Shown piece by piece: positions 16,963-32,456 of a stretch of 64,000 nucleotides of DNA. Position numbers and translations under genes: made by a program. Positions within the stretch are counted from its first letter, which is position 1. Every line of letters starts with the position of its first letter. The DNA comes from Chlorobium sp. GTDB taxonomy: Bacteria; Bacteroidota; Chlorobiia; Chlorobiales; Chlorobiaceae. The DNA lies in contig SZXV01000002.1 of NCBI GenBank assembly GCA_005862225.1, forward strand, positions 248,001-312,000, in the 5' to 3' direction. The notes beneath the pieces are model-generated. The model was not told where the DNA came from and did not search any database. It saw nothing but the letters and a program-made list of their open reading frames with translations.

Positions 16963-17229
16963 ATGAAACTATCAGAAAGGGTTCGCCCGATTTCCTGGCT
17001 TAAATCTCATGCAGCCGAGATTGTAAGGGATTTTGAAGAGAATCGGAGCCCGCTTATTGTTACCCAGAATGGTGAAGCAAAAATGGTTGTTATGGACATT
17101 CGTACCTACGAAGAGCAGCTTGAAACCATGGCGTTTCTGAAACTCATCAACATGGGCAAAAAAGAGATTTCTGAAGGGAAATTCCAGAGTGTCGAGAATT
17201 TCTTTACTGACCTGGAAAAGGAGGGATAG
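16963..17229 (+). CDS. Antitoxin, Phd/YefM family
   Basis: This 88-residue protein has the Phd/YefM N-terminal DNA-binding fold (SERVRPISWLKSHAAEIVRD, then PLIVTQNGEAKMVVMDIRTY) and an acidic C-terminal tail that neutralises the toxin. The family represses its own operon with the toxin as co-repressor. The stop overlaps the GTG of the downstream ParE-like gene by one base, the usual coupled antitoxin-toxin order. It is the first gene of the accessory island. Confidence 0.9.
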   Translation: MKLSERVRPISWLKSHAAEIVRDFEENRSPLIVTQNGEAKMVVMDIRTYEEQLETMAFLKLINMGKKEISEGKFQSVENFFTDLEKEG

Positions 17230-17558
17230 TGGCGCATTCAGTTTTTATTCTTGACTCTGCGAAAGGTGATTATCGTGAAATCAGGAGCTATGTGCGGCAT
17301 AAATTTGGTGAAAAGGTCTGGAGAGAGTCGGAGCAACAATACAAAGAGGTTTTGAGCAATATCGGAGAGTTTCCTTTTGCCGGTTTTGTTGCTAAGGAGG
17401 CTGTTTCACTTGGCTTGCAAGGGATTCGCGAAAGGCTGGTTGGGCAAACAAGGGTTATTTATGAGGTTGGGGAGCATGAGGTTTATGTCTCCATGTTTGT
17501 CTCCACCCGTCGTGATTTCATGACCATGCTTACTGACCGGCTGCTTAAAAGTGAATAA
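17229..17558 (+). CDS. Toxin, ParE/RelE superfamily
   Basis: The 109-residue protein has the ParE/RelE pattern: AHSVFILDSAKGDYREIRSYV at the N terminus, then a central helix pair and RLVGQTRVIYEVGEHEVYVSMF strands near the C terminus. It starts at GTG 17229, overlapping the antitoxin stop. Family members poison gyrase (ParE) or cleave mRNA on ribosomes (RelE); which applies cannot be decided here. The large DGR target gene starts 58 nt downstream on the same strand, so read-through is possible. Confidence 0.88.
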   Translation: MAHSVFILDSAKGDYREIRSYVRHKFGEKVWRESEQQYKEVLSNIGEFPFAGFVAKEAVSLGLQGIRERLVGQTRVIYEVGEHEVYVSMFVSTRRDFMTMLTDRLLKSE

Positions 17559-17616: not shown

Positions 17617-20600
17617 ATGGCTGATAATGGAATAACAAAAGTAAAAATACTTGTTGCCTCCCCCGGTGACGTTGACAGGGAGCGGCAGATTGTAGAGGAT
17701 GTGATAGGAGAGTGGAACATCCGCAATGGTGATGAGCGCAAGATGGTTCTCGAAGCGATACTGTGGGAAAAACATGCGGCGCCTGAAAACTGTGGAGATG
17801 GCGAGGGGCCTCAGGCGCCAATTACCCGCCAGATTGTTGATGATTGTGATTGTGCCATCGGGATTTTCTGGCATCGCATAGGAACACCAACAAAACTTGC
17901 TGAAGGTGGAGCAGTGGAAGAGGTGCAGAGAATGCTGACTGTGCTGAAGCGTCCGGTTATGCTCTATTTTTCGCGAATGCCGATTGCTCTGCATAAAGTT
18001 GATGGAGAACAGGTAAAAAAGCTTGAGGCATTCAAAACATTGATGAAAAAAGATGGATTGGTATGGGAATATGATAATCGGACGAAGTTTCGTACCCATC
18101 TTTCCCGCCACCTTGACAAGCAGATTCGCCAGTGGTTCTGCACTCCCGGTGCGCCAACCGTCAAGCAGTCCATACCAGAGGATGAGGAACTACGCCGCTA
18201 CCAGTCGGCGCTGAAAGAGGAGCTGGGCTACATCCGTATGCTTGGAATGCCCGGAGTTGAATCTGTCAAGGTCAATCTTGATGATGAGACCTTTGTGCCG
18301 TTACGGCTTTCTGACCGGCAGGATATGTTTTCCGGCCAGCCTGAAAAAGATTCTGGAAAGAGGCCCGAAGGAGGCGATCATACTCTCTATCCAGACGCTA
18401 TCATGAAGCGGGCGTTCCATGACCGTCGCCATCGCAGGATGCTTCTCGTTATCGGTGATCCCGGTGCAGGAAAAACAACGCTGCTCAAATATTATGCCCT
18501 TTGTGCGCTTGATTCGGAGAGATCCAGCCGACTTGGATTTTCCGGGCCGGTTAACGTCTTCTATCTGCCGCTGCGCGAGCTTGTCCGCCATGAGAATGGC
18601 CAGTACCACTCTCTTCCTGCAAATCTTGCGCTCTGGTTGGAGCGGAATCAGTTGCCCTTTACAGCAGAGCAGTTCGATCAATGGCTGCAGAGCGGAACAG
18701 CGCTTGTTTTGCTTGACGGGCTTGATGAAATCAGCAATACCGATGATCGAAAAGAGGTGTGCCGGTGGATTGATGCTGCCTGGAAAAGTTTTTCAGCGCT
18801 TCGTTTTGTGGTGACTTCCCGGGCAACAGGGTACCGCCAGGAAGAGGGTGTTGAACTTGCGGCTGATTTTGAACGAGCTGATGTTCAGGACTTTACGGTT
18901 GATCAGCAGGAGCTGTTTTTATTGCAATGGTTTACAGCCGCGTTTCTTAAAGAACCCTGTGACGTTGGTGTTGACGAAGCCGCCTGGCTGGCAAAACAAA
19001 AAGCAAAGGCTGAAGAGCGAACCCGTACCATTGCCAAACACCTGAAAGAGGAGAAGAACAAGGGGTTGCGGCAGCTTGCTGCCATCCCCATGATTCTGCA
19101 GATTATGGCGATTCTCTGGAAAGACCGGGACTATATGCCCGAGAGCCGGGTGAAGCTCTATGAGGCGGCTATTGATTACCTGCTTGAATTCAGGGACAAG
19201 CGCAGAGGGATAACCCCACTTGTTTCGGCCGTGCGTGCCCGTAAAGTGCTTGGGCCGGTCTCTCTGTGGATGCAGGAAGATCTGAAAAAAGATGAGGCCG
19301 AAAAGGAGTCCATGCAGGCAATCATGAAAGAACGCCTGGAGATTCTTGATCATCCCCCGTCAGTCGAGGCGTTCTGTGATTATATGGTGAAACGGGCAGG
19401 CTTGCTTGTGGAGTATGGTGGGGGCAAAGCTTACCTTTTTCGCCATAAATCATTGCGTGAATATCTGGCAGGCGTTCAGCTTGCCAAAAAAGTGAACAGA
19501 ACCCCCGACTCTCTGGATAATCTGGTTTCCGGCTTTGGTGATGACTGGTGGGAAGAGCCGATCAAATTCTTTATTGCCCAGGAAGATGAGGAGATATTTG
19601 ATCTGTTCATGGAAAAGCTGTTCGACTCTCCGGTCAGTGAAGAGCTGACACCAAAAAAGCAGTTCTTGCTGCAAACAATTATTGAAGAGGCGCCTGAAAA
19701 GAAGGTTGATGCGCTCTGTACAAAACTGCTTGACACGGCAACCACAGCCAGCCGTCAGCGGGTGATTCTCGACTGCCTGAAAACCATCGCGAAGCCTGCC
19801 GCACTTTCGGCGCTGGAGCAGTTCATTGCACAACAACTCGATAAAGAGAACGCAGAGAACAGTGATGTTATCGATCGTGCCGAAGAGGTGATTATCGCCC
19901 TCGGCGGAAAAGCGCTTGAACGTGCCACTGAAAAGAGTATCAGCGGTAAACCCTTGTCGATTCGCAACCCGAATGAGCAGAATGCCGAGTATATCCTGAT
20001 ACCGGGAGGCAACTACTGGTATTCGGCAATGAAAAAAACGCTGGATGTTGGTGATTGTTATGTTGCCAAGTATCCAGTGACGAACAAGCTTTACCGCTCA
20101 TTCATCAAGTGGTTGGAAGGAAAAGATTCAGGGAAGAACCATGCCTCATCATACAGGGCAGAACTGGAAAGGATAGCGCAGAGTAACGAATGGGGCCCGG
20201 GGTTTGGCGAGTATCTCAAGGGAGAAAGTGACCTTGCGGCATTGTTTCGTTCAGAAAATGATGAGGATCGCAAATTCGATGGGGATGATCAACCGGTGGT
20301 TGGCGTCACCTGGTATGCTGCCAGCGCCTACTGCCTGTGGCTTTCGATGCTGGAAGGCAAGGCCGCACGTTATCGTCTTGCTCATGAGATAGAGTGGGAG
20401 TGGGCTGCTGGAGGGAAACAGGGCACAATCGGGGAGAAAGTGCGGGAATATCCTTGGCCGGATGAGATGGGTGATGTGAATCCGAAATTGCTGAACTCTT
20501 ACGAAAGCAATATTCATGCCACAACACCAGTGGGCAGCTACCCTGAAGGCGCTACGCCAGAAGGGCTTTATGATATGGCGGGTAATGTCTGGGAGTGGTG

Positions 20601-20787
20601 CTGCGATTGGTATGGAGACGATGGCACTTTTGCCAATCCACTTGGGCCTGAAACTGGTTCTTACCGTGTGCTTCGTGGCGGGAGCTGGAACCTCATCGCC
20701 GAGATCTGTCGGTCGGCGAATCGCTACAGGTCCTCGCCCGACTACCGGAACTTCAACGTTGGCTTCCGCTTGGTCTTCGTCCCGTAG
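17617..20787 (+). CDS. DGR target 1: DUF4062-like, NACHT NTPase and variable FGE-sulfatase domain protein
   Basis: This 1056-residue protein has three parts. Residues about 1-115 look like DUF4062 (KILVASPGDVDRERQIVEDV, then IGIFWHRIGTPT). A NACHT-type STAND NTPase carries Walker A GDPGAGKTT at 280-288 and Walker B ALVLLDGLDE at 362-371, followed by a helical region. From about 785 to the end lies an FGE-sulfatase (C-type-lectin-like) domain. Its last 43 residues (1014-1056) are encoded by VR1. Eight of the eleven template Asn codons are changed here, giving among others Y1016, L1026, I1027, I1030, Y1037, S1039, Y1043 and F1046. Inference: a switch-type sensor whose ligand-binding face is hypermutated. 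No membrane segment was seen. Confidence 0.88.
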   Translation: MADNGITKVKILVASPGDVDRERQIVEDVIGEWNIRNGDERKMVLEAILWEKHAAPENCGDGEGPQAPITRQIVDDCDCAIGIFWHRIGTPTKLAEGGAVEEVQRMLTVLKRPVMLYFSRMPIALHKVDGEQVKKLEAFKTLMKKDGLVWEYDNRTKFRTHLSRHLDKQIRQWFCTPGAPTVKQSIPEDEELRRYQSALKEELGYIRMLGMPGVESVKVNLDDETFVPLRLSDRQDMFSGQPEKDSGKRPEGGDHTLYPDAIMKRAFHDRRHRRMLLVIGDPGAGKTTLLKYYALCALDSERSSRLGFSGPVNVFYLPLRELVRHENGQYHSLPANLALWLERNQLPFTAEQFDQWLQSGTALVLLDGLDEISNTDDRKEVCRWIDAAWKSFSALRFVVTSRATGYRQEEGVELAADFERADVQDFTVDQQELFLLQWFTAAFLKEPCDVGVDEAAWLAKQKAKAEERTRTIAKHLKEEKNKGLRQLAAIPMILQIMAILWKDRDYMPESRVKLYEAAIDYLLEFRDKRRGITPLVSAVRARKVLGPVSLWMQEDLKKDEAEKESMQAIMKERLEILDHPPSVEAFCDYMVKRAGLLVEYGGGKAYLFRHKSLREYLAGVQLAKKVNRTPDSLDNLVSGFGDDWWEEPIKFFIAQEDEEIFDLFMEKLFDSPVSEELTPKKQFLLQTIIEEAPEKKVDALCTKLLDTATTASRQRVILDCLKTIAKPAALSALEQFIAQQLDKENAENSDVIDRAEEVIIALGGKALERATEKSISGKPLSIRNPNEQNAEYILIPGGNYWYSAMKKTLDVGDCYVAKYPVTNKLYRSFIKWLEGKDSGKNHASSYRAELERIAQSNEWGPGFGEYLKGESDLAALFRSENDEDRKFDGDDQPVVGVTWYAASAYCLWLSMLEGKAARYRLAHEIEWEWAAGGKQGTIGEKVREYPWPDEMGDVNPKLLNSYESNIHATTPVGSYPEGATPEGLYDMAGNVWEWCCDWYGDDGTFANPLGPETGSYRVLRGGSWNLIAEICRSANRYRSSPDYRNFNVGFRLVFVP
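20656..20787 (+). repeat. DGR variable repeat 1 (VR1)
   Basis: This 132-bp segment matches the template repeat at 22451-22582 without gaps. Fifteen positions differ: 13 are template adenines (A to T, C or G), and two near the 5' edge (G to T at 20661, T to C at 20671) are not. The 3' 28 nt are invariant, consistent with an initiation-of-mutagenic-homing zone. It ends exactly at the stop codon of target 1. Confidence 0.95.
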
Positions 20788-20942
20788 TTCGGGGGCAGTT
20801 TTCCGGCTTTGCTTTTGAGCTATGCGGAGCAAAGAACAAGGTTGAGGTGCGCAGCAGCGAGGGACGCGCTGCGGCGCACCTCAACCGGGCAGCTTGGCAC
20901 GAACCACAGAAAATGCCGCCGAAGGCGGCCGACCGATATTTT
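20788..20942 (+). repeat. VR-associated structured flank, copy 1
   Basis: This 155-nt segment begins at the base after the VR1 stop and is about 95% identical to 24080-24234 behind VR2. It contains a hairpin CTTTGCT/AGCAAAG (20807-20834). It also holds a very stable hairpin of 13 bp (20840-20852 with 20874-20886) extended by an inner 6-bp stem (20854-20859 with 20867-20872), and a GCCGCC-gaa-GGCGGC hairpin near its end. Post-VR hairpins are known to promote homing in the Bordetella phage DGR; such a role here is inference. It has no coding potential. Confidence 0.85.
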
Positions 20943-20995: not shown

Positions 20996-21457
20996 ATGCA
21001 GATAAAACTGTTTACCATACCCGTCGGTGATAGTGGCGCAGCCCAGCAGGAGATGAACGCCTTTCTGAAGGCGCATAAAATACTGGAAATCGAGCAAAAG
21101 CTGATTAGCAACGACAACGGGGCGTACTGGTGTTTTTGTGTTCGTTACATCGAGACCGCTTTCAACATCGCGTCAGAAAGCAAAGCCAGGGTTGATTATC
21201 GCCAGGTGCTTGATGAGCCAACCTTTCAGAAGTTTACGCATTTGCGTGCCATAAGAAAACAGGCGGCGGCTGCCGAAGGGCTGCCGGCATTTATTGTGTT
21301 TACCGACGAAGAGCTTGCCGAACTTGCAAAACTGGAGGAGATAACCATCAAGAGCATGTTGGGGATAAAAGGAATTGGCGACAAAAAGGTTGAGCGTTAT
21401 GCTCACTATTTTACTGCAAAACCAGAATCCAATGAAGCGACGGGGGCAGTTGCTTGA
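20996..21457 (+). CDS. DGR accessory protein with HRDC-like domain
   Basis: This 153-residue protein sits where DGRs usually carry the accessory gene. Residues about 95-145 look like an HRDC (helicase and RNase D C-terminal) domain: FIVFTDEELAELAKL, then MLGIKGIGDKKVERYAHYF. The N-terminal half has no family I recognise. HRDC-domain genes are known to replace avd in a subset of DGRs, where they probably help the reverse transcriptase bind template RNA or target DNA. Its 3' end overlaps the RT start by 26 nt, so the two are coupled. Confidence 0.8.
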   Translation: MQIKLFTIPVGDSGAAQQEMNAFLKAHKILEIEQKLISNDNGAYWCFCVRYIETAFNIASESKARVDYRQVLDEPTFQKFTHLRAIRKQAAAAEGLPAFIVFTDEELAELAKLEEITIKSMLGIKGIGDKKVERYAHYFTAKPESNEATGAVA

Positions 21458-22436
21458 ACAGATTGCTGATCTGAATAATCTGTACGAAGCTTTTTACAAG
21501 GCGCAAAAAGGCAAGCACTCCAAGCCTTATGTTTGCGCCTACAGAGAGCAGTTGGAGGAAAATTTGCAGATATTACGCCATCAGATTACTTCGGGCGCGG
21601 TTGAGACGGGCAATTATCACACATTCATCATCTATGATCCGAAAAAACGCCTGATTTGCGCTACCCCTTTTGCGCAACGAGTTCTGCATCATGCACTCAT
21701 GAATGTCTGCCATGCCTCTTTTGAGAAACATCAGATCGCAGGCAGTTTTGCAAGCCGTTCCGGCAAAGGCACCTATGCCGCTCTTGACCAGGCAAGGCAG
21801 TATAATCAACGCTATCGCTGGTTTTTAAAACTCGACGTTCGCAAATATTTTGAGAGCATTGATCATGCAATCCTGAAACGGCAGCTTCATCGTCTGTTCA
21901 AAGACCCGCCACTGCTGCGGCTTTTTGAGCAGATTATTGAAAGCTACTCCACCGCAGAGCATAAAAGCCTTCCGATTGGCAACCTGACCAGCCAGTATTT
22001 TGCGAACCACTATCTCTCTGTGGCTGACCATGACGTTATAAGGGTATTACAGGTTCCGGCCTACGTTCGCTACATGGACGATATGGTGTTGTGGCATCAT
22101 GATAAAGAGGCGCTGCTGGCGACAGGCTACAGGTTTCAGGAGTTTCTTGCAAAAGAGTTGCTGCTTGAGCTGAAACCCTTTTGCCTGAACAAAAACAAAA
22201 AAGGGTTGTCGTTTCTGGGATATCTGCTCTACAAAGAGAAAGTACGGCTTGCCCCGCGAAGCAAAAAACGCTTTCTTGCAACATCCCTGCTTTATGACGG
22301 CTACCTGCAAACCGGGCTGTGGTCACAAAAGGCGTTCGCAAACCACGCGATGCCGTTGGTTGCCTTTACCGAATACGCCAATGCAAGAGAATTCAGAAAA
22401 AATGTGTACCGTACAGTGGTGGCCAGTGAAGAATAA
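21432..22436 (+). CDS. DGR reverse transcriptase
   Basis: This 334-residue reverse transcriptase shows DGR-type motifs. The N terminus [11 protein letters not shown]...[12 protein letters not shown] is typical, the catalytic YMDD lies at residues 214-217, and IGNLTSQ at 182-188 replaces the motif-4 sequence of group II intron RTs. It lacks maturase and endonuclease domains. It makes cDNA from the template RNA with errors at adenines and, with the accessory protein, replaces VR sequence. ATG at 21432 was chosen by family start; in-frame upstream codons to 21375 overlap the HRDC gene further. The TR begins 14 nt after its stop. Confidence 0.95.
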
Positions 22437-22450
22437 GGGCATCAGTCGTG

Positions 22451-22582
22451 GGTTCGAACCGTGTGTTTCGTGGCGGGAGCTGGAACAACAACGCCGAGAA
22501 CTGTCGGTCGGCGAATCGCAACAGGAACACGCCCGACAACCGGAACAACAACATTGGCTTCCGCTTGGTCTTCGTCCCGTAG
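22451..22582 (+). repeat. DGR template repeat (TR)
   Basis: This 132-bp segment matches both VRs. Read in the VR frame it holds 11 AAC codons, clustered where the VRs differ: S-N-R, then [20 protein letters not shown]. It has 31 adenines; 13 are changed in VR1 and 18 in VR2. AAC cannot mutate to a stop by changes at its two adenines, so diversification never truncates the targets. It lies directly downstream of the RT and is not itself in a real gene. It is probably transcribed as a non-coding RNA with or after the RT message. Confidence 0.95.
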
Positions 22583-22595
22583 CTCAAAAGCAAAG
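22581..22595. repeat. 15-nt inverted match between TR flank and VR flanks
   Basis: AGCTCAAAAGCAAAG, overlapping the last two TR bases, is the exact reverse complement of 20807-20821 and 24099-24113 in the VR flanks. There the same segment forms the first arm and loop of a hairpin. It is the only part of the 155-nt VR flank found beside the TR, and it is inverted. Confidence 0.85.
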
Positions 22596-22792
22596 TCGGA
22601 TGACTGCCTCTGAACAGATTGATGACCCTGTCCCTGATTCTGTCAGGGCAAAGAGCGCCACACACGATGCCCGGCATTGGTAGGACGAGCCGGATAGCCG
22701 TTTCGAAGATGACGGGCATATTTTTTTGAAAAAAGAAACGTTAACTTTCGCTTCAATCGACGTATGCCGCAACCATTAAAAAGAGCGTGACC

Positions 22793-24079
22793 ATGGACGA
22801 ACAGACACCTCCACAATCTGCTTCACCGTCAACACGGGTTGATGAGCTTGACAAAGCCTTTGTAGCAGACCTCATTGAGCAGCCAAAACAGCTTGATAAA
22901 CTTGCCAGACTGGTGCTCATCTTCAGCTTTGTGGTGCCAGTGCTTTATGCCATTGGGTTAAAGTTCTTTTCGAGTTCTGAGTCTGCGCCAAGCGGTCTAT
23001 GGTTTATTGTTGCGGCATTCGCGAGCTGGTTTGTGTCGCTGTTGTTGAGCCTGTTTGGTCTCATCTCCGGAAAAGGGAGGCAGAATGCAGGAGGCAAAGA
23101 AAAATCGGTCAGCGTTGAGGCGCTCTATCAGGCAATCATTCGCTATAAACGGCGAATGCTCATCGGCTCCAGTATCTTCTGTTTTCTTGGCGTTTGCTTT
23201 GCAGGGCTCACTGTTTTCAGCAACGCTTTCCCAACGATGCTGCCAAATCAGGCGCCTCAAAACTTTGTTCTGATACGAGGTGGCGAATTTACGATGGGAA
23301 GCCCTGAGAATGAAGTTGGTCATCAACCGAATGAGACACAGCATCAGGTGAAAGTAAGTGATTATTATATGAGCAAATATGAGGTGACTTTTGCTGAGTT
23401 CAAGCGCTTTATTGCAGAGTCACACTATCTGACAGATGCGGAAAAGGATAGCAAGGATAACGGGAGCTGGATTTTGGATGGTAACGAGGCGAAAAAAGTA
23501 GCGGGAGTCAACTGGCGTCATGGAGTTTCAGGCAAAGAGCGGACACCGGCTGAAGCCAATCATCCGGTGGTTCATGTGAGTTGGAATGATGCCATTGCCT
23601 ATTGCCAGTGGCTGTCGGAAAAAACCGGAAAGTGGTACCGGCTTCCGACCGAAGCGGAGTGGGAATATGCCTGCCGGGCTGGTAGTCGCACACCGTTCAA
23701 TACCGGTGAGAACCTGACTACAGCGCAGGCGAACTACGACGGCAATTATCCATATAACAATAACCGGAAAGGTCAGTATCGGGCGAAGACTGTTGCTGTT
23801 GAGAGTTTTGCTCCGAATAGATTTGGGTTGTATAACATGCATGGCAATGTGTGGGAGTGGTGTGATGATGTGTATGGAGAGAAGTATTATGATGAGTGCA
23901 AGGCGAAGGGTCTTGTTGAAAACCCTGCCGGGCCAGCGCCTGAAACCGGTTCGTTCCGTGTGTTTCGTGGCGGGAGCTGGCGCATCATCGCCGAGCCCTG
24001 TCGGTCGGCGAATCGCGGCGGGAGCACGCCCGGCCACCGGGACGGCATCATTGGCTTCCGCTTGGTCTTCGTCCCGTAG
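22793..24079 (+). CDS. DGR target 2: membrane-anchored FGE-sulfatase protein with variable C terminus
   Basis: This protein of about 428 residues has three hydrophobic segments near residues 37-60, 68-92 and 120-146. A C-terminal FGE-sulfatase/C-type-lectin-like domain follows from about 155 (FVLIRGGEFTMGSPENE, YYMSKYEVTFAEFKRF, WYRLPTEAEWEYACRAG, GNVWEWC). The last 43 residues (386-428) come from VR2. All 11 template Asn codons are changed here, giving F388, R397, I398, I399, P402, G409, S411, H415, D417, G418 and I419. Three membrane segments place the variable domain on one face of the membrane, likely outside the cytoplasm (inference). ATG 22793 is preferred to GTG 22787. Confidence 0.9.
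   Translation: MDEQTPPQSASPSTRVDELDKAFVADLIEQPKQLDKLARLVLIFSFVVPVLYAIGLKFFSSSESAPSGLWFIVAAFASWFVSLLLSLFGLISGKGRQNAGGKEKSVSVEALYQAIIRYKRRMLIGSSIFCFLGVCFAGLTVFSNAFPTMLPNQAPQNFVLIRGGEFTMGSPENEVGHQPNETQHQVKVSDYYMSKYEVTFAEFKRFIAESHYLTDAEKDSKDNGSWILDGNEAKKVAGVNWRHGVSGKERTPAEANHPVVHVSWNDAIAYCQWLSEKTGKWYRLPTEAEWEYACRAGSRTPFNTGENLTTAQANYDGNYPYNNNRKGQYRAKTVAVESFAPNRFGLYNMHGNVWEWCDDVYGEKYYDECKAKGLVENPAGPAPETGSFRVFRGGSWRIIAEPCRSANRGGSTPGHRDGIIGFRLVFVP
23948..24079 (+). repeat. DGR variable repeat 2 (VR2)
   Basis: This 132-bp segment matches the TR without gaps. All 18 differences fall on template adenines: seven A to T, seven A to G and four others to C. No non-adenine position differs, which suggests recent homing from this TR. 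It ends at the stop codon of target 2. Confidence 0.95.
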
Positions 24080-24234
24080 TTCAGGGGTAGTTTTCCGGCT
24101 TTGCTTTTGAGCTATGCGGAGCAAAGAACAAGGTTGAGGAGAGCAGCAGCGAGGGACGCGCTGCGGCGCACCTCAACCGAGCAGGTGGGCACGAACCACA
24201 GAAAATGCCGCCGAAGGCGGCCGACCGATATTTT
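24080..24234 (+). repeat. VR-associated structured flank, copy 2
   Basis: This second copy of the 155-nt segment behind VR1 differs at about seven positions. The 7-bp hairpin (24099-24126) and the GC-rich GAA-loop hairpin are intact. The large hairpin has two changes in its left arm (GGTGCGC to GGAGAGC) that weaken it. The rest of the gap to the Trypco2 gene (24235-24506) shows no gene and probably holds that gene's promoter. Confidence 0.85.
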
Positions 24235-24506
24235 TTAAAAGCTTTTCAAGATTCAGCGCAAGTCGTATGAGGGGGTAGTCATGCGCAATTGAAAGCCATT
24301 AAGAGCTGTCACAAGGCACGGATTACTTTTGAAATGGCGAATTTATTGGTATTGTTTAAGGAGGTTTTTGGCTCTGAAGATAACCGATCCCGGTCATGCG
24401 TGTTGATGGAGTTGTGGTCAAGACCTCAATCTTGAAGCTTTTTGGTTTTCCCGCACAGAGGTGTTTAACTTGTTAACCACAGGCTTATAAACAGGAGTAT
24501 TCGGTC

Positions 24507-25040
24507 ATGGATAATTCGGAATCGAAATTTGGCGAGGACGAAGAAGGTCTTACTATTCTTGGCGCTCTTGCACAACTTAAGGCGGATATCTTCAAGCTTC
24601 AAAGTAAAAACCTGGAAGAAAATACTGAGCCTCTCTTTCTGATAGAAGGAGGAGAAATTGAACTCAAGCTTGTTGCAAAAAAGGATGTCAAAGCCGAGGC
24701 AAAAGGATTGACAAAATTTAAGCTGGTTTTGGCTGGCGGAGAAGCAGGCGGAAGTATTGGCGGAAGCACCTCGCACGAATATTTGCAGACCATCAAAATT
24801 AAGTTCAGCGCATTAATGCCGACACAAAAAGATACATCTCCAGATGTTTCTCCTGGGTCGTTACCGTTGACGTACCCAACGCATTTTTCGCCGACGATAT
24901 CGCCAAGCGTAAAATCGAAATGGAGTGTGTCGCCTATTGTTGATTGGACTGATGTTGTTGTGCAGGACATTAAATTGCCTCAAGTTGAAATATGGCCGAA
25001 AGGATCACTATTCATCCATAAGGATTACTGCGAGCCTTGA
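24507..25040 (+). CDS. Trypco2-domain protein
   Basis: Residues about 12-100 of this 177-residue protein match the Trypco2 (trypsin-co-occurring domain 2) pattern. A helix LGALAQLKADIFKL is followed by strands IEGGEIELKLVAKKDVKAEA and KFKLVLAGGEAGGS, then the conserved S-T-S-H-E segment before a final strand. The Pro/Ser-rich C-terminal part (about 105-177) is not recognised. In published surveys this domain occurs in NTP-dependent conflict systems with trypsin-like proteases, none of which is adjacent here. It lies 430 nt downstream of DGR target 2 on the same strand; a functional link is inference. Confidence 0.7.
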   Translation: MDNSESKFGEDEEGLTILGALAQLKADIFKLQSKNLEENTEPLFLIEGGEIELKLVAKKDVKAEAKGLTKFKLVLAGGEAGGSIGGSTSHEYLQTIKIKFSALMPTQKDTSPDVSPGSLPLTYPTHFSPTISPSVKSKWSVSPIVDWTDVVVQDIKLPQVEIWPKGSLFIHKDYCEP

Positions 25041-25270: not shown

Positions 25271-26725
25271 TTGTTTGAGCAGACATTCAAGAATATTGAC
25301 GATATCCTCCACAAAGACGCAGGCTGCGGCAGTGAGCTTGACTACATTGAGCAGACCTCGTGGATACTTTTTCTCAAGTACCTTGACGACCTTGAAAAGG
25401 AGAAGCAGATCGCGGCGGAGCTCTCCGGCAAACCATACATCCCGCTGCTGAGCCCATATTACCGCTGGGAGTCGTGGGCAGCGCCAAAAACCGCCGATGG
25501 CAAGATTGACCATAACCAGGCGGCGACTGGCGATGATCTCAAGGATTTTGTTGACCGCGAGCTTTTTCCCTACCTGAAAACCTTCAAAACCTCGGCGGAG
25601 AGCTCCGCCACCATTCAGTACAAGATTGGCGAGATCTTCAGCGAGCTGAAAAATCGTGTCCAGAGCGGCTACAACCTGCGTGAAGTGATCAACCGGATTG
25701 ATGAACTCCGTTTTCGTACCAATGCTGAAAAGCATGAGATGAGCCATCTCTACGAGAGCAAAATCAAAAACATGGGCAACGCCGGGCGCAACGGAGGCGA
25801 ATACTACACCCCGCGCCCGCTCATCAAAGCCATTGTCAGGGTTGTCGCTCCTGTTATCGGTCAGAAAATCTACGATGGCGCCGTCGGTTCAGCGGGCTTC
25901 CTCGCCGAAGCTTATGAGTACCTGAAGACAAGCAAGAGCCTTACCACCGGCGATATGGAGATGCTGCAGAAAAGCACCTTTTATGGCAAGGAGAAGAAGG
26001 GGCTGGCCTACATCATCGGCATCATGAACATGATTCTGCATGGCGTTGAAGCGCCAAACATTGTGCATACCAACACCCTCGCCGAAAACCTTGCCGACAT
26101 TCAGGAGCGCGACCGGTTCGACATCATCATTGCCAATCCGCCCTTCGGAGGCAAAGAGCGGGCCGAGGTGCAGCAGAACTTCCCCATCAAGTCGGGAGAG
26201 ACCGCCTTTCTCTTTCTCCAGCACTTCATCAAAATTCTCAAAGCTGGCGGCAGGGCCGGTGTGGTCATCAAAAACACCTTTCTCTCCAATACCGACAACG
26301 CCTCCGTCAGCCTTCGCAAGCTTCTGCTCGAAAGCAGCACCCTGCACACCGTGCTCGACTGTCCCGGCGGCACCTTTCAGGGCGCGGGCGTCAAAACCGT
26401 GGTGCTTTTTTTCGAGAAGGGCGCGCCGACAAAGAGGATCTGGTACTACCAGCTCGACCCCGGTCGCAACCTCGGCAAAACCAACCCGCTGAACGACAAC
26501 GATCTGGCGGATTTCGTTGAGTTGCAGAAAAGCCGCGCCGATTCAGCAAAATCGTGGAGCCTGAGCATGGCAGACGTTGACCGCACAACGTGGGATCTTT
26601 CGGTCAAGAATCCCAACAGTGGCGGGGAGGTGGCGCATCGCACGCCGCAGGATATTATGGAGGAGATTGCTGCGCTGGATGCGGAGAGCGCGGGGGTGCT
26701 GGAGAAGATTCGGGGGCTGTTATGA
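25271..26725 (+). CDS. hsdM: Type I restriction-modification system, methyltransferase subunit
   Basis: This 484-residue protein has the HsdM N-terminal helical domain (FKNIDDILHKDAGCGSELDY, EQTSWILFLKYLDDLEKEK). The N6-adenine methyltransferase core follows, with YDGAVGSAGFLAEAYEYL as SAM motif I and IIIANPPFGGKERAE as the catalytic NPPF motif. It methylates the hemimethylated site chosen by HsdS. The start is TTG at 25271 with GGGAG upstream. The 230 nt before it contain an unrecognised reading frame ending at 25276 (FEIDNEGIITSLVGQQQREE), possibly a gene remnant. The stop overlaps hsdS by 4 nt. Confidence 0.93.
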   Translation: MFEQTFKNIDDILHKDAGCGSELDYIEQTSWILFLKYLDDLEKEKQIAAELSGKPYIPLLSPYYRWESWAAPKTADGKIDHNQAATGDDLKDFVDRELFPYLKTFKTSAESSATIQYKIGEIFSELKNRVQSGYNLREVINRIDELRFRTNAEKHEMSHLYESKIKNMGNAGRNGGEYYTPRPLIKAIVRVVAPVIGQKIYDGAVGSAGFLAEAYEYLKTSKSLTTGDMEMLQKSTFYGKEKKGLAYIIGIMNMILHGVEAPNIVHTNTLAENLADIQERDRFDIIIANPPFGGKERAEVQQNFPIKSGETAFLFLQHFIKILKAGGRAGVVIKNTFLSNTDNASVSLRKLLLESSTLHTVLDCPGGTFQGAGVKTVVLFFEKGAPTKRIWYYQLDPGRNLGKTNPLNDNDLADFVELQKSRADSAKSWSLSMADVDRTTWDLSVKNPNSGGEVAHRTPQDIMEEIAALDAESAGVLEKIRGLL

Positions 26726-27855
26726 AGGCTGGATGGGCAATGAAGAGGCTGAATGAAGTCTGTCAAATTAAACCACCCAAGGCCGAAGCCCGTAAAAGGA
26801 TTTCTACTGATACGTTGGTATCCTTTGTGCCGATGGAAGATTTGGGTATTGAGCAAAAATTCTTCAATGCTGTTCAGAAAAAACCGTTATCCGTTGTTTC
26901 AGGCAGTTATACATACTTTGCAGATGGAGATGTACTTCTTGCAAAGATAACGCCCTGTTTTGAAAATGGAAAACTTGGGATTGCTGGTGCTCTTACCAAT
27001 GGGATCGGATTTGGTTCAAGTGAGTACATTGTGTTCCGATCGGATGGGCGATTAAGAAATGAATGGCTCTATTACTATTTGTCCCGTGAAAGTTTTCGAG
27101 TTGAGGGGGCGAAATTGATGTCAGGGGCAGTTGGTCATAAACGTGTTCCGAAAGAGTTTATCGAAAACTATTTGATTCCCGTTCCCCCACTTCCTGAACA
27201 GCAGCGCATCGTCGCTCTGCTCGACGAAGCATTCGCGGCGATTGCCACCGCCAAAGCGAACGCCGAAAAGAATCTCAAAAATGCCCGTGCGCTTTTTGAC
27301 TCGTATTTGAATTATGATTATGGAGCCAATGCTTTTCTTGGGGATTTAGTACAAATTAAAACAGGTAAATTAGATGCCAATGCGGCAGAAGCAAATGGCA
27401 GATATCCATTTTTTACTTGTTCGCGTGAAGTGTATTCAATCAATAATTATGCTTTTGATTGTGAGGCCATTCTTTTAGCGGGCAATAATGCTGTTGGAGA
27501 TTTCAATGTCAAACACTATAAGGGAAGGTTTAATGCCTATCAGCGAACTTATGTGATCACGGTGAATGAAAAGCAACTTATCCTTTATCGTTTTCTATAT
27601 TTCCATCTATTAAAAAGCTTAAAAACGTTCAAAGAACAGTCTGTTGGTGTTGGGACAAAATTTTTGAAGCTTGGGATGATACAGAATTTGAAAATTGCGT
27701 TACCTCCACTTGCTGACCAGCAACAAATCGTTACAAAACTCGATGCTCTGAGTGAGGAAACACAGCTCCTTGAATCCATCTACCAGAAAAAAATCACCAC
27801 CTTGGATGCTCTGAAAAAATCCATCCTGCACCAGGCTTTCACAGGGGAGTTGTGA
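26722..27855 (+). CDS. hsdS: Type I restriction-modification system, specificity subunit
   Basis: This 377-residue protein has two target-recognition domains, each followed by a coiled-coil spacer: PVPPLPEQQRIVALLDEAFAA in the middle and LPPLADQQQIVTKLDALSEE near the end. Each recognition domain reads one half of a bipartite site; the specificity is not readable. The ATG overlaps the hsdM stop as ATGA. The base composition of the recognition domains is visibly more AT-rich than the conserved spacers and hsdM, as expected of rapidly exchanged modules. Confidence 0.92.
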   Translation: MKAGWAMKRLNEVCQIKPPKAEARKRISTDTLVSFVPMEDLGIEQKFFNAVQKKPLSVVSGSYTYFADGDVLLAKITPCFENGKLGIAGALTNGIGFGSSEYIVFRSDGRLRNEWLYYYLSRESFRVEGAKLMSGAVGHKRVPKEFIENYLIPVPPLPEQQRIVALLDEAFAAIATAKANAEKNLKNARALFDSYLNYDYGANAFLGDLVQIKTGKLDANAAEANGRYPFFTCSREVYSINNYAFDCEAILLAGNNAVGDFNVKHYKGRFNAYQRTYVITVNEKQLILYRFLYFHLLKSLKTFKEQSVGVGTKFLKLGMIQNLKIALPPLADQQQIVTKLDALSEETQLLESIYQKKITTLDALKKSILHQAFTGEL

Positions 27856-27925
27856 GCATGAAGCAACAAAACCAGCTCTCTGTTTGAACGATTATGGTAA
27901 CACACTGTCCCAGATATTATTGGGG

Positions 27926-28213
27926 TCAGTGATTGTTGTCACTCGCCCTGCCTCTGCCACGCTCAATTGCTTCCATGATCTTTGGGTTGTCAAAATAGTC
28001 GTCTGTATTGCGCGATAACTGACGTGGCGGGATAGGAAGATTATCTGCATCCAACCCTTTAAAGCGATGATGAATACGGATAGCAAGATTTCCTGATTGT
28101 GGGTCGTCGGGGATTGTTTTCTGCTTCAAAAATTCAACGAAATCCAGCACCTCTTGACGCATAGGTTCAGGAAGCTCTTTCACCACCTTGTATATTTGCT
28201 CTGCTGTTGTCAT
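27926..28213 (-). CDS. DUF2281-family protein, orphan antitoxin-like
   Basis: The 95-residue protein begins TTAEQIYKVVKELPEPMRQE followed by VLDFVEFLKQK, the usual DUF2281 N terminus, and ends in a charged tail with a D-D-Y-F-D motif. Family members usually sit upstream of PIN or other toxin genes as antitoxins. Here no toxin follows on the same strand: the next gene downstream is hsdS, convergent. The ATG at 28213 was chosen over an upstream TTG because of the family start. Confidence 0.72.
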   Translation of the reverse strand: MTTAEQIYKVVKELPEPMRQEVLDFVEFLKQKTIPDDPQSGNLAIRIHHRFKGLDADNLPIPPRQLSRNTDDYFDNPKIMEAIERGRGRASDNNH

Positions 28214-28302
28214 TGGTTCTCCTTGTGCAAAAGGTGGTAAGAGAAAATTTTGTATTTTAAAATAATGAAATTTCAACAGATTTTTTTGTTTGCAACTCAG
28301 CG

Positions 28303-29451
28303 ATGGAACGTATTCACTCTATAAATCCGGAACGCATACTCTGGTGCTGTGCCGATTATGGTATGACACCGGGCGAGCTTGCGTCTGAACTGGGTATTGC
28401 GCCGAGCAGCATTGAACTGGTGATGGCGGGTGAAGATGGCATGACCTTTAACCAGTTGCGCAGGGTGGCAGACTATTTTGGTCGGGGAGTGCTTTTTTTT
28501 CTGGAAGAGGGTCATGTCGATGAGGCACAGGTGCATACTGCGCAATTTCGTACGCTGACCAACCAGAAACCTGAGGTTACTCCAACTCTTAAAAAATTGA
28601 TTGAGCGGGTTGAGAAACAGCGTGAAGTTTACCTCGGCTTGCTTGAAGATATGGATGAGTCTGATCGGGTTCGTTTTACTCCCCCTGACGTGCAAGGTAT
28701 TACTCTGCCAGAAGCCGCACATGCCGTACGCAAGTGGTCAGGCTTGCTTGACACCAATGATTTTGACTCTTACCGTGCGGCCTTGGAGGCGAAGGGGGTT
28801 CTGGTCTTTCGAAGCAATGGCTATAGCGGAAAGTGGCAGATTCCTAAAGAAAATCCGATTCTTGGGTTTACTCTGTACGATCCGGTTTGTCCGGTGATTT
28901 TTATCAAAAAACAGGCTTCTGAGCAGCGGCAAACGTTTACGCTGATGCACGAATTAGGCCATTTGCTCCTGCACAAAGCCAGTTCAATTGATGATGAGCA
29001 TGATTTATACTCTCACCAAGGCAGGGAGCGTGATGCCAATGCGTTTGCTGGTCATCTGCTGGTGCCGGATGCTTTTCTTGCCATGATCAATGATGGAGAA
29101 CGTCCTGATGAGGTCTCTCAATACGATGAGTGGCTGGATCGGCAATGCAGGGCATGGGGTGTAAGTTGCGAAGTTATTTTGCGTCGTTTACTGGATGCAG
29201 GTCGTTTACCTCAACGTGACTATAGCGCTTACCGGCAATGGTGTTCAACATTGATTGTTTCGCTCAAAGATGGCGGAAACCGTCAGTATCGTCACCGTGA
29301 GCCAAGGCATGTGTTCGGTGATACCTATGTGCGAACGGTGCTGGATGCCTTGAGTGATCGTCATATTACACTGGCCAAGGCAAGTAATTATCTCGATAGC
29401 ATTAAAATCAAAGATTTGCATAGTTTGGAGAGTTATTATGCAGGCCTTTGA
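28303..29451 (+). CDS. XRE-type HTH and ImmA/IrrE metallopeptidase domain protein
   Basis: The 382-residue protein has an N-terminal helix-turn-helix (about 10-65; MTPGELASELGIAPSSIELV) and a zinc-peptidase domain with HELGH at residues 216-220 inside FTLMHELGHLLLHKAS. ImmA/IrrE proteins cleave repressors or act as the antitoxin-like regulator of a downstream PIN-type toxin. The PIN-like gene here overlaps its end by 14 nt, the standard pairing. The start ATG is directly preceded by weak Shine-Dalgarno sequence. Confidence 0.9.
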   Translation: MERIHSINPERILWCCADYGMTPGELASELGIAPSSIELVMAGEDGMTFNQLRRVADYFGRGVLFFLEEGHVDEAQVHTAQFRTLTNQKPEVTPTLKKLIERVEKQREVYLGLLEDMDESDRVRFTPPDVQGITLPEAAHAVRKWSGLLDTNDFDSYRAALEAKGVLVFRSNGYSGKWQIPKENPILGFTLYDPVCPVIFIKKQASEQRQTFTLMHELGHLLLHKASSIDDEHDLYSHQGRERDANAFAGHLLVPDAFLAMINDGERPDEVSQYDEWLDRQCRAWGVSCEVILRRLLDAGRLPQRDYSAYRQWCSTLIVSLKDGGNRQYRHREPRHVFGDTYVRTVLDALSDRHITLAKASNYLDSIKIKDLHSLESYYAGL

Positions 29452-29920
29452 CGCTTCATCCATCATCCATGCCTGGGATAATTACCCGATCATTCAGTTT
29501 CCGGGCCTGTGGGATTGGATGGCATCCCAAATTGCTGAAAAAAAACTTGTGATGCCAAGTGTTGCTTATGATGAAGTCGCAAACAAAATACCAGAATGTG
29601 GAGAGTGGCTCAGGGATAACAAGATTGAGTTATTGGCCATAACGAACCCGATTCTTCATGAGGCGTTAAAGATCAAAAATCTACTCGGTATTGTTGGCGA
29701 CAGCTACCACTCGAAAGGTGTGGGAGAAAATGATATTTTTATTATTGCGACAGCGAGTATCAACAACACAGGATTGGTATCAAATGAAGGTCGGCAGCCA
29801 AAGCTGCCAGATAATCTCTCAAAAAGCAAGATACCTGTAATTTGTGCAATGGGTGAGGTTGGGGTCACGTGCATTAATTTTATAGAATTTATCAAACGCT
29901 CAAACGTGGTGTTCACATAG
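29438..29920 (+). CDS. PIN-like DUF4411 protein, putative toxin
   Basis: This 160-residue protein matches DUF4411, a PIN-like nuclease family usually found after ImmA/IrrE genes. Acidic residues expected for a PIN active site are visible: Asp in FDASSIIHAWDNYP, Glu in VAYDEVANKI, Asp in GENDIFIIATA. The start is the ATG at 29438 inside the end of the preceding gene. Probably the RNA-cleaving or otherwise toxic partner of the ImmA/IrrE protein. Confidence 0.85.
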   Translation: MQAFDASSIIHAWDNYPIIQFPGLWDWMASQIAEKKLVMPSVAYDEVANKIPECGEWLRDNKIELLAITNPILHEALKIKNLLGIVGDSYHSKGVGENDIFIIATASINNTGLVSNEGRQPKLPDNLSKSKIPVICAMGEVGVTCINFIEFIKRSNVVFT

Positions 29921-29951
29921 TTTTTTACAGGAAAGATACCAATGAGAGTTC

Positions 29952-30089
29952 ATGAAAAGCGCATCTTTTCTATCACTTCGTGTAGAGCCGGAACTTCGCC
30001 GCTCTGCCGAACAAGTACTGCGGGAAGATGAGACGCTCTCTGCGTTTACCGAAAGCTCTCTTCCCAATGCGAAAAAGACGACGTTGTGA
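29952..30089 (+). pseudogene. Truncated antitoxin remnant (YlcI/YnfO-like)
   Basis: This 45-codon frame, SASFLSLRVEPELRRSAEQV then LREDETLSAFTESSLPNAKK, matches the N-terminal half of small antitoxin-like proteins (ribbon-helix-helix/YlcI-YnfO type) that normally continue for about 35 more residues before a ParE toxin. It stops early at 30087. The next frame overlaps it and encodes the beginning of a ParE-like protein. Confidence 0.6.
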
Positions 30090-30133
30090 GTTTTACCATC
30101 CGCTTCATCCTTGAAGCGAAAGAAGATTTGTGA
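30086..30133 (+). pseudogene. ParE toxin remnant (first 15 codons)
   Basis: GTG at 30086 opens a frame VSFTIRFILEAKEDL that matches the N terminus of ParE/RelE-superfamily toxins and stops at once (TGA 30131). It overlaps the stop of the antitoxin remnant as an intact pair would. The rest of the toxin is missing; hsdR begins 4 nt later, so an insertion or deletion has removed it. Confidence 0.6.
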
Positions 30134-30137
30134 TCCA

Positions 30138-32456
30138 ATGAACGAAGCCGAAACGAGAGCGGAGCTGATTGACCCGCAACTGAAAGCGAGTGGATGGGGC
30201 GTTGTCGCAGGCACCAAAGTGCAGCGGGAGTTCCACATTACGGCGGGCAGGATTCAGGCTGGCGGTATTCGGGGCACCTTGTTGATGGCTGATTACGTGC
30301 TGGTTTATCACGGTCGCAAGCTGGCGGTGATTGAGGCCAAAAGCAGTGATCTGGAGGTTGGTGAAGGGGTGGCGCAGGCCAAGAACTATGCTGAAAAGCT
30401 TCAGCTTGCAACCACGTTTGCCACCAATGGTCGGGAGATTTACCAGATCAGCATGACCAGCGGTGCGGAGGGTTTGATTGATGCTTTTCCTTCGCCTGAC
30501 GAGCTTTGGCAGAAAACCTTCTCGGTGCCGAACCCGTGGGAAGAGCGTTTCAACAGCGTGCCTTTTGAGGAGATTGGCGGCACAAAAACGGTGCGCTACT
30601 ATCAGGAGCTTGCGGCCAACAAGGCGCTGGAAGCCATAGCCAAGGGAAAGCAGCGAATTTTGCTGACGCTTGCTACCGGCACGGGAAAAACCTTTATCGC
30701 TTTCCAGATTGTCTGGAAGCTTTTTCAAAGCAGATGGAACCTCAACCGTGACGGCAAGCGGAGGCCGAGGGTGCTCTTTCTGGCCGACAGGAACATTCTT
30801 GCCAATCAGGCCTTCAATGCTTTTTGTCCTTTTCCCGCTGATGTGCTTGCACGTATAAAGCCCGATGAGATTCGCAGAAATGGGCGCGTTCCAACTAATG
30901 GCAGTATCTTTTTTACCATATTTCAGACGTTCATGACCGCCAAGGAGAACACCCCTTGCTTTGGCGACTATCCTCCGGATTATTTCGACCTGATTATCAT
31001 CGACGAGTGTCATCGTGGCGGAGCCAATAATGAAGGGAACTGGCGCGGTATTCTTGACTATTTTTCTCCGGCAGTGCAGATTGGCCTCACTGCGACACCA
31101 AAACGCACCGACAATGTCAATACCTACGACTATTTTGGGGATCCAGTTTTTATCTATTCGCTCAAGGAGGGGATCAACGATGGTTTTCTGACCCCCTTCA
31201 GGGTCAAGCGCATCAAGACCACGATTGACGATTATATCTACACCTCTGATGATCAGGTCATTGAGGGTGAGGTGGAGCAGGGAAGACTGTATGTTGAACC
31301 AGACTTCAATCGCTCAATCGAAATCATGGCGCGTGAAGCCAAACGGGCACAGATTTTACTTGCGAACATCAACCAGAAGGAAAAGGCCATTGTTTTCTGT
31401 GCTAATCAACCCCACGCGGCGCTGGTGCGCGACCTGATCAATCAGTACAAAAGCAGTTTGGATGCAAACTATTGTGTACGGGTCACTGCCAATGATGGTG
31501 AACTGGGGGAGCAGCATCTGCGGGATTTTCAGGACAACGAAAAAACTGTCCCGACAATGCTTACAACGTCGCAAAAGCTCTCGACAGGTGTTGACGCACG
31601 AAACATCCGCAACATTGTTCTCTTGCGGCCGATTAAAACGATTATTGAGTTCAAGCAGATTATCGGGCGTGGCACCCGGCTTTTTGATGGCAAGGAGTAC
31701 TTTACCATCTATGACTTTGTTGATGCCTGCCACCACTTTCAGGATGTTGAGTGGGATGGGGAACCGGTTGACCAGAGCACTATAACGGAGACTGACTCTC
31801 AAAGGGGAAGGGAAGAACCGGAGCCCTATCAGCCGGAAACGAAACAACCACCCGCCGGGCCTCGAAAAAAGGTCAAAATTAGGCTGAGCGATGGTAAGGA
31901 GCGTGAAATACAGCACACTATTGCCACCTCGTTCTGGAGTGCTGACGGCAAGGTGATTTCTGCACAGGAGTTCATGCAGGGGATGTTCGGCGTTTTGTTG
32001 CCGTCGTGCTTCAACGATGAGGATGAGTTAAGGGAGTTGTGGTCAAATCCGCAGACTCGCAAATCCTTGCTTGCCAGGCTTGCTGAAGCTGGTTACGGAA
32101 AAGGAGAGCTGGAGTCCATCCAGAAGCTGATTAATGCTGAAAACAGTGACCTCTTTGATGTGCTTGAATTTGTCTCTTTCGCCCAGCCACCAATCACCCG
32201 CGAAGCAAGAGTGGCTGAAGCGCAAAACAGTATCTATGACGGACTGGATGATAAACAGCGAGAGTTTGTGGAGTTTGTTCTTGCCAAATACATTGAGACC
32301 GGTGTCTACGAGCTTGATCAGGAAAAACTGCCGCACCTGCTGCAACTCAAATATCATGCGCTTTCGGATGCTACCGCCCTTCTCGGCAGCACGGAGAAGA
32401 TTCTCTCAACCTTTGTTGGGTTTCAGAAGCATCTCTATCGGAGGCCTGCGGCGTGA
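30138..32456 (+). CDS. hsdR: Type I restriction-modification system, restriction subunit (EcoEI-type)
   Basis: This protein of about 772 residues has an N-terminal PD-(D/E)xK nuclease (ADYVLVYHGRKLAVIEAKSS), a superfamily 2 helicase core with TGTGKT at 180-185 and the DECH box at 289-292, the TATPKRTDN motif, a helicase C domain (IVLLRPIKTIIEFKQIIGRGTR) and an EcoEI_R_C-like tail. It translocates and cuts unmethylated DNA with HsdM/HsdS. ATG 30138 is preferred; a frame extending to 30111 overlaps the toxin remnant. It is separated from hsdS by 2.3 kb of toxin-antitoxin genes. Confidence 0.93.
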   Translation: MNEAETRAELIDPQLKASGWGVVAGTKVQREFHITAGRIQAGGIRGTLLMADYVLVYHGRKLAVIEAKSSDLEVGEGVAQAKNYAEKLQLATTFATNGREIYQISMTSGAEGLIDAFPSPDELWQKTFSVPNPWEERFNSVPFEEIGGTKTVRYYQELAANKALEAIAKGKQRILLTLATGTGKTFIAFQIVWKLFQSRWNLNRDGKRRPRVLFLADRNILANQAFNAFCPFPADVLARIKPDEIRRNGRVPTNGSIFFTIFQTFMTAKENTPCFGDYPPDYFDLIIIDECHRGGANNEGNWRGILDYFSPAVQIGLTATPKRTDNVNTYDYFGDPVFIYSLKEGINDGFLTPFRVKRIKTTIDDYIYTSDDQVIEGEVEQGRLYVEPDFNRSIEIMAREAKRAQILLANINQKEKAIVFCANQPHAALVRDLINQYKSSLDANYCVRVTANDGELGEQHLRDFQDNEKTVPTMLTTSQKLSTGVDARNIRNIVLLRPIKTIIEFKQIIGRGTRLFDGKEYFTIYDFVDACHHFQDVEWDGEPVDQSTITETDSQRGREEPEPYQPETKQPPAGPRKKVKIRLSDGKEREIQHTIATSFWSADGKVISAQEFMQGMFGVLLPSCFNDEDELRELWSNPQTRKSLLARLAEAGYGKGELESIQKLINAENSDLFDVLEFVSFAQPPITREARVAEAQNSIYDGLDDKQREFVEFVLAKYIETGVYELDQEKLPHLLQLKYHALSDATALLGSTEKILSTFVGFQKHLYRRPAA

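Follow-up and report, generated by a model that had tools for sequence, protein, structure and literature searches.

A predicted membrane-anchored target of a Chlorobium diversity-generating retroelement, one of at least four related to a single template

Introduction

In Thiohalocapsa PB-PSB1, sensing by diversity-generating retroelements (DGRs) has been stated to take place in both the cytoplasm and the periplasm (Dore 2024, PMC10907252), and the idea of one retroelement serving two compartments is therefore not new. The DiGReF collection gives two variable regions (VRs) for Chlorobium phaeobacteroides and four for Pelodictyon phaeoclathratiforme (Schillinger 2012, PMC3521204), cruciforms are suggested to activate remote targets in cyanobacteria (Vallota-Eastman 2020, PMC7517822), and a hairpin or cruciform is needed for homing in BPP-1 (Guo 2011, PMC3240598). 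A survey of DGRs was, by its own account, unable to see remote VRs (Roux 2021, PMC8144416), and the setting of conflict systems is described by Kaur 2020 (PMC7159879). The element considered below lies in a 64,000-nucleotide stretch of DNA from Chlorobium sp. (the window; contig SZXV01000002.1, positions 248,001 to 312,000). Its features are all on the forward strand, and its second target, here called VP2, is the main subject.

Results

The DGR cassette is arranged in the order VP1, accessory gene, reverse transcriptase (RT), template repeat (TR) and VP2, which makes VP2 the downstream target. VP1 (17617-20787) is a predicted cytoplasmic protein in which a NACHT domain is joined to a domain of the formylglycine-generating enzyme (FGE) family, and its variable region, VR1, occupies 20656-20787. 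The HRDC-domain accessory protein (20996-21457; HRDC E 2.5e-14) overlaps the RT gene and has matches in 17 distinct loci among the 81 searched, window included. The RT, 334 residues from the ATG at 21432 (21432-22436, in an ORF that opens at 21375; RVT_1 E 2.1e-16), has orthologues in relatives' DGR loci and contains the sequences IGNLTSQ and YMDD, which we take to be marks of a DGR-type enzyme. It is followed by the non-coding TR at 22451-22582 (22451-22585 by repeat detection).

VP2 is a protein of 428 residues that extends from the ATG at 22793 to the stop codon at 24077-24079, in an ORF listed as opening at a GTG at 22787. It consists of an N-terminal module with three predicted transmembrane helices (3TM; residues 1-150, 22793-23242) and an FGE-sulfatase/C-type lectin (CLec) domain (23261-24067; PF03781, E 2.5e-64), whose variable region, VR2 (23948-24079), ends at the stop codon. 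The same 3TM-FGE architecture is found directly downstream of the TR in two related loci, L057 and L058. With TR and VR differing at adenines only, an RT beside the TR, an accessory gene, a VR placed in a C-terminal CLec/FGE domain and a hairpin 3′ of the VR, VP2 is a genuine DGR target. An Rfam search of the window returned no match, and PADLOC none for VP2.

Just upstream of VP1, a small two-gene pair (16963-17558) resembles, by eye, a Phd/RelE-type toxin-antitoxin system, and residues 9-172 of VP1 (17617-18132) match the PADLOC candidate PDC-S60 (E 1e-27) and, weakly, DUF4062. A Trypco2-like gene (24507-25040; E 5e-5, marginally under the Pfam cut-off) sits just downstream of VP2; it occurs in no other of the 80 related loci and was rejected as a conserved partner. 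Beyond it, 25271-32456 is occupied by genes resembling type I restriction-modification genes, among which lie one ImmA/IrrE-like and one PIN-like ORF (all named by eye); this places the DGR beside a defence-type cluster.

In a preliminary description of this DNA, VP2 was said to possess three N-terminal hydrophobic segments and to be anchored in the membrane. Such segments are present, as hydrophobic 19-mers at residues 40-58, 73-91 and 123-141, and correspond to predicted helices 1 (22910-22966, in to out), 2 (23009-23065, out to in) and 3 (23159-23215, in to out). Lysine and arginine together number 13 in the N-terminus plus loop 2 and one in loop 1, a split that recurs in the orthologues of L057 (16 versus 1) and L058 (14 versus 4) and in seven stand-alone relatives of the module (13-15 versus 1-3). 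AlphaFold (26 sequences) places helices of VP2 at residues 12-59, 66-91 and 108-145, the pLDDT being mostly 84-92 in the stretches 31-60, 71-90 and 111-140. Because of the charge bias (13 versus 1) and the three modelled helices, VP2 is predicted to span the membrane three times, with its N-terminus and the basic loop 2 inside and its FGE/CLec domain in the periplasm. Prediction of helices and the positive-inside pattern both support the anchoring, and a cytoplasmic FGE domain is not what the sequence predicts. The FGE half is poorly modelled in both AlphaFold models (pLDDT <50 over the VR), and so no VR geometry is claimed from them.

Residues 1-150 of VP2 match stand-alone membrane proteins of 147-160 residues (typically ~155), with identities of 33-44% for seven of them and 25-26% for the most distant, L051. 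The module has no convincing family in Pfam (E up to 10) or NCBIfam, and the stand-alone family matches no model of either collection. In the same genome, the next genes after a stand-alone copy (L137:2035-2496) encode a zinc-ribbon-like (ZnR) protein and then a 901-residue CHAT-AAA-TPR protein (CHAT E 2.4e-37), and these form a three-gene operon on contig C1 (L137:2035-5486). Of 394 genomes sampled from the phylum, 20 encode the family; they fall in 3 of 170 genera, all belonging to one order. Across the 24 places that were fetched (L149-L172), a ZnR gene adjoins every full-length stand-alone copy, and CHAT lies within the ~3.4 kb fetched in nine of them (L149-L154, L157, L158 and L161). The places without ZnR or CHAT are three fusions (L159, L169 and L170) and the partial or truncated copies (L166, L168 and L171).

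An intact 3TM-FGE fusion exists in three genomes, namely the present one, G134 (the source of L057) and G011 (that of L058), in each case just downstream of a TR; a broken remnant persists in G017. The CHAT operon is also found in the present genome and in G134. G011 contains the fusion with no CHAT or ZnR match anywhere in its genome, and the CHAT link therefore cannot be obligatory; its fusion has lost the VR hairpin described below and carries 5 non-adenine differences. Three fusion genomes are too few for the co-occurrence of CHAT and hairpin to be called a correlation. No CHAT or ZnR gene was found next to VP2, elsewhere in the window or within the 80 related loci. New here is the homology between the 3TM module and a small membrane protein whose gene adjoins those of a ZnR protein and a CHAT protease; no report of a 3TM-CHAT module on a DGR target was found in the open-licence papers searched.

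The C-terminal domain of VP2 matches solved FGEs, including human FGE, at E ~1e-36, and is also matched by the variable protein TvpA of Treponema denticola (PDB 2y3c; E 1.5e-17). The FGE motif GGSYMCHRSYC aligns with GGSWRIIAEPC in VP2, where the second cysteine is kept and the position of the first is an isoleucine specified by a diversified codon; changed codons of VP2 lie in and around this site. FGE catalysis needs both active-site cysteines, and VP2 does not have both. With its first-cysteine position rewritten, the VP2 domain is probably a binder rather than an enzyme.

VR2 differs from the TR at 18 of the 31 adenines and at none of the 101 other sites (Fisher p 3e-14), the first non-adenine difference falling just past the stop codon; the adenine-only divergence of the tail shared by the two targets is as first noted. 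VR1 is changed at 13/31 adenines and 2/101 other sites, and two remote regions of the genome, VR3 and VR4, at 16/31 and 18/31 adenines and at 5 and 4 of the 101 others (p 5e-8 to 1.4e-10 for the adenine bias of these three). The earlier statement that all template Asn codons are altered in VR2 is correct for the AAC codons (11/11, against 8/11 in VR1) but not for the twelfth Asn codon, the AAT of ‘SANR’, which is intact in all four VRs of this genome.

VR2 had further been thought more recently or fully rewritten than VR1. The full rewriting is borne out by the template positions discussed below, but the mutation load of VR2 is not higher: neither adenines (18/31 versus 13/31, p 0.31) nor AAC codons (11/11 versus 8/11, p 0.21) differ between the two. 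In L057, the nearest intact orthologue, the order is reversed, the membrane target having 6/10 of its AAC codons changed and the target upstream of it 9/10, and loads of the 11/11 type are ordinary among 33 cis comparisons, some of which involve the same contig twice. With p values of 0.2-0.3 against VR1 and this reversal in L057, a higher load as the sign of more rounds of rewriting was rejected.

Mutations of the present template itself are a better clock of rewriting than load. The TR has T at both positions 16 and 115, where most relatives' TRs have C, although T is unique at neither position; in this TR-like set, 25 of 143 matches were gapped or short and were dropped, identical ones are shown once, some contigs recur under two locus names in different collections (e.g. 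L022/L078, L035/L082 and L039/L058), and TR and VR were told apart by AAC count (≥7 for a TR), so that a slightly mutated VR could be miscounted. Among the four VRs, T16 and T115 occur together only in VR2, which is therefore a copy of the present template over its full length. VR1, with T115 and C16, is a copy that ended early, on the 5′ side. VR3 and VR4 have C16 and C115 and a common T93 that is absent from the present TR, and so the template from which they were last copied was an older one or a different one.

The picture of one cytoplasmic and one membrane target was right as to the two compartments but was an undercount. With the TR as query, six places were found in the genome (2.5 Mb, 13 contigs), comprising the TR, four VRs and one non-diversified paralogue. 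VR3 (C4:168101) ends a 484-residue TIR-TM-FGE protein (L007:3777-5228; TIR_2 E 1e-19), and VR4 (C3:58569, in L008) ends an FGE protein, VP4, that has one N-terminal hydrophobic segment and is perhaps a lipoprotein. Both VRs are remote, being adjoined by neither RT nor TR. The genome thus has at least four targets related to one template, at least one of them predicted to be cytoplasmic and three extracytoplasmic, and it is likely that VR3 and VR4 were copied in trans by this DGR. The paralogue, a VR5-like sequence at C4:61590 (L009), was dismissed as a target on account of many non-adenine differences and a frame offset.

Three RTs are encoded in the genome. One belongs to a separate second DGR in L013 (C4:530000-545000), with its RT at L013:6510-7547, its own template at about L013:6169-6296 and two NACHT-FGE targets that bear N-terminal hydrophobic segments. 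This DGR was rejected as the source of VR3 and VR4, no TR or VR query having matched L013 at E 1e-3. The third RT (L014), which looks like a broken RT of group II type and adjoins a transposase-like ORF, was likewise discounted; no repeats were found beside it. In related DGRs, FGE targets (L081, L121, L124, L126, L062 and L063) display caspase-like, Hsp70-like, zinc-ribbon-TM or phosphoesterase-like N-termini, as judged by eye, and one head is thus combined with a wide range of output modules.

About 50 nt past the stop codons of VR1, VR2 and VR3 is a hairpin of up to ~20 pairs, with a core of GAGGGACG or AAGGGACG. The hairpin of VR1 (20840-20886) is almost perfectly paired (-26.6 kcal/mol; z -7.4), and that of VR2 (24132-24178), which has the conserved GAGGGACG core, folds with -18.8 kcal/mol (z -5.1). 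Allowing up to two mismatches, the core pattern occurs three times in the 2.5 Mb genome, only behind these three VRs. The flank of VR4 matches the others up to ~42 nt and then again from the 3′ arm onward; in L008, a different and longer palindrome resides behind VR4 where the 5′ arm and core should be. Sequence and computed fold further indicate a short terminator-like hairpin (24207-24221) downstream of VP2, followed by a run of T (24230-24236).

Among relatives, 48 of the 71 distinct VR flanks and 0 of the 30 TR flanks contain the motif, a descriptive count in that the motif was set after the inverted repeats had been seen, flanks that were identical or shorter than 160 nt were dropped, and L123 is scored as lacking a hairpin that sits nearer its stop codon. 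A motif-free count of inverted repeats (score ≥12; flanks of <200 nt dropped) gives 28/71 VR flanks and 0/29 TR flanks. In 30 of the 33 distinct hairpins, the other three differing from a listed one by one or two bases, 86% of cells pair, and cells changed on both sides number 87, versus 26 in shuffles (0/500 as high) and 19-31 when the alignment is slid. No more than one non-adenine difference from some template is seen in 32 of 48 VRs with the motif versus 3 of 23 without it, each VR being compared, from position 18 on, with any TR of the set and not with that of its own genome alone; the corresponding Mann-Whitney p of 1.7e-7 is optimistic, given that rows are related. The covarying hairpin as a mark of template-like VRs is new here. 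Such a hairpin may mark live targets and would explain how remote genes are served.

Discussion

VP2 is best read, with a probability of about 0.7, as sharing a single DGR template with at least three other targets and as a periplasm-facing, self-diversifying receptor whose output would run through its three-helix module. Error-prone reverse transcription of the TR and hairpin-guided retrohoming would keep making new binding faces on a common lectin scaffold, which may carry various output modules according to compartment: a NACHT domain in the cytosol, a TIR domain across the membrane, a lipoprotein-like form outside and the 3TM module in VP2. The lectin domain of VP2 could bind an outside ligand, such as the surface of a phage, a foreign cell or kin, and the 3TM module would relay the event into the cytoplasm, where the response perhaps involves the CHAT-protease machinery encoded with the stand-alone 3TM paralogue. 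The sensor function of VP2 and any CHAT link are both what we infer from sequence comparison.

Possibly, VP2 is instead an adhesin-type binder of the surface or periplasm, in which the 3TM module is a mere anchor with no immune or death signalling and diversification tunes attachment to particles, cells or a consortium partner. Such a role would agree with the view of Roux 2021 (PMC8144416) of most cellular targets as membrane-anchored binders of extracellular substrates, and VP4 is lipoprotein-like and without an output domain. Its probability is lowered by the NACHT and TIR domains of sister targets on the same template and by the nature of the 3TM module, which is a conserved component of what appears to be a signalling operon and has a long conserved cytoplasmic part, unlike a minimal anchor. 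An FGE domain still active as a formylglycine-generating enzyme, with incidental variation, would fit the E of ~1e-36 to solved FGEs, but is very hard to reconcile with a rewritten first-cysteine position and with changed codons in and around that site.

A single genome is uninformative on ongoing change in VR2, and mismatches in the 5′ arm weaken its hairpin relative to that of VR1; VR2 might therefore be a dead relic, rewritten once and now inactive. This seems quite improbable for a VR with no non-adenine difference and both template-specific T residues, and the internal ‘AGA’ mismatch is often seen where other hairpins follow near-exact VRs. It is also unlikely, if slightly less so, that the hairpin is simply a transcription terminator or REP-like repeat with no part in retrohoming. 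A separate short hairpin with its T run, further downstream, looks like the terminator. No T run directly follows the VR hairpin, whose core is confined to three places behind VRs in 2.5 Mb, is absent behind all 30 TRs and accompanies template-like VRs.

On the receptor reading of VP2, if correct, a single template supplies several output modules across two compartments, and the same binding repertoire could be tested both inside and outside the cell. The covarying hairpin would serve as a sequence tag for remote, live DGR targets and separate these from decayed ones. Conceivably, VP2 would enter a ZnR-CHAT complex through its 3TM module, either alongside the stand-alone paralogue or in competition with it, and a diversified receptor in the periplasm would set off a protease in the cytoplasm; this step is doubtful. 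The DGR would in that case have given the membrane subunit of a caspase-like (CHAT) protease system an antigen-binding head that rewrites itself. Since NACHT and TIR targets draw on this template too, a single set of binding faces would be coupled to several outputs, in death or defence, on either side of the membrane. The 3TM-CHAT link offers a concrete candidate partner for a membrane DGR target, a class with few known outputs.

Several of these features have counterparts in known systems. As in Thiohalocapsa PB-PSB1 (Dore 2024, PMC10907252), CLec/FGE targets are fused to NACHT; one locus, like its DGR 3, holds two targets, one predicted cytoplasmic and one periplasmic; the VRs of a locus are unequally active, with diversification in trans possible; and an antigen-sensor role has been proposed, with Trypco2 near some loci. 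The present element differs in that one template is related to four targets in three places, whose modules are NACHT, TIR-TM, 3TM and lipoprotein-like, and a 3TM module tied to CHAT operons is not met in the accessible text of that study. Multiple VRs are also a feature of other Chlorobi DGRs in DiGReF, which includes remote VRs in other hosts (Schillinger 2012, PMC3521204); the accessible text of that study deals with neither membrane topology nor modules. Cyanobacterial DGRs (Vallota-Eastman 2020, PMC7517822) likewise possess remote targets, TIR- and CHAT-like modules and a few TM targets, but there CHAT is inside the target, whereas here only the membrane partner of the CHAT operon is fused. 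An N-terminal TM segment or signal peptide with a C-terminal VR is the layout of most cellular target clusters in the survey by Roux 2021 (PMC8144416). TvpA of Treponema denticola (PDB 2y3c), likewise a DGR variable protein, shares the C-terminal fold of VP2 and has no 3TM module. Finally, in BPP-1 (Guo 2011, PMC3240598), an inverted repeat downstream of the VR combines free stem sequence with a conserved loop, as here, and the present core contains GGGA, which fits the 5′-GRNA of BPP-1; the BPP-1 stem has 7-10 bp and lies 4-34 bp after the VR, whereas the Chlorobium hairpin has up to ~20 pairs and lies ~50 nt past the stop codon.
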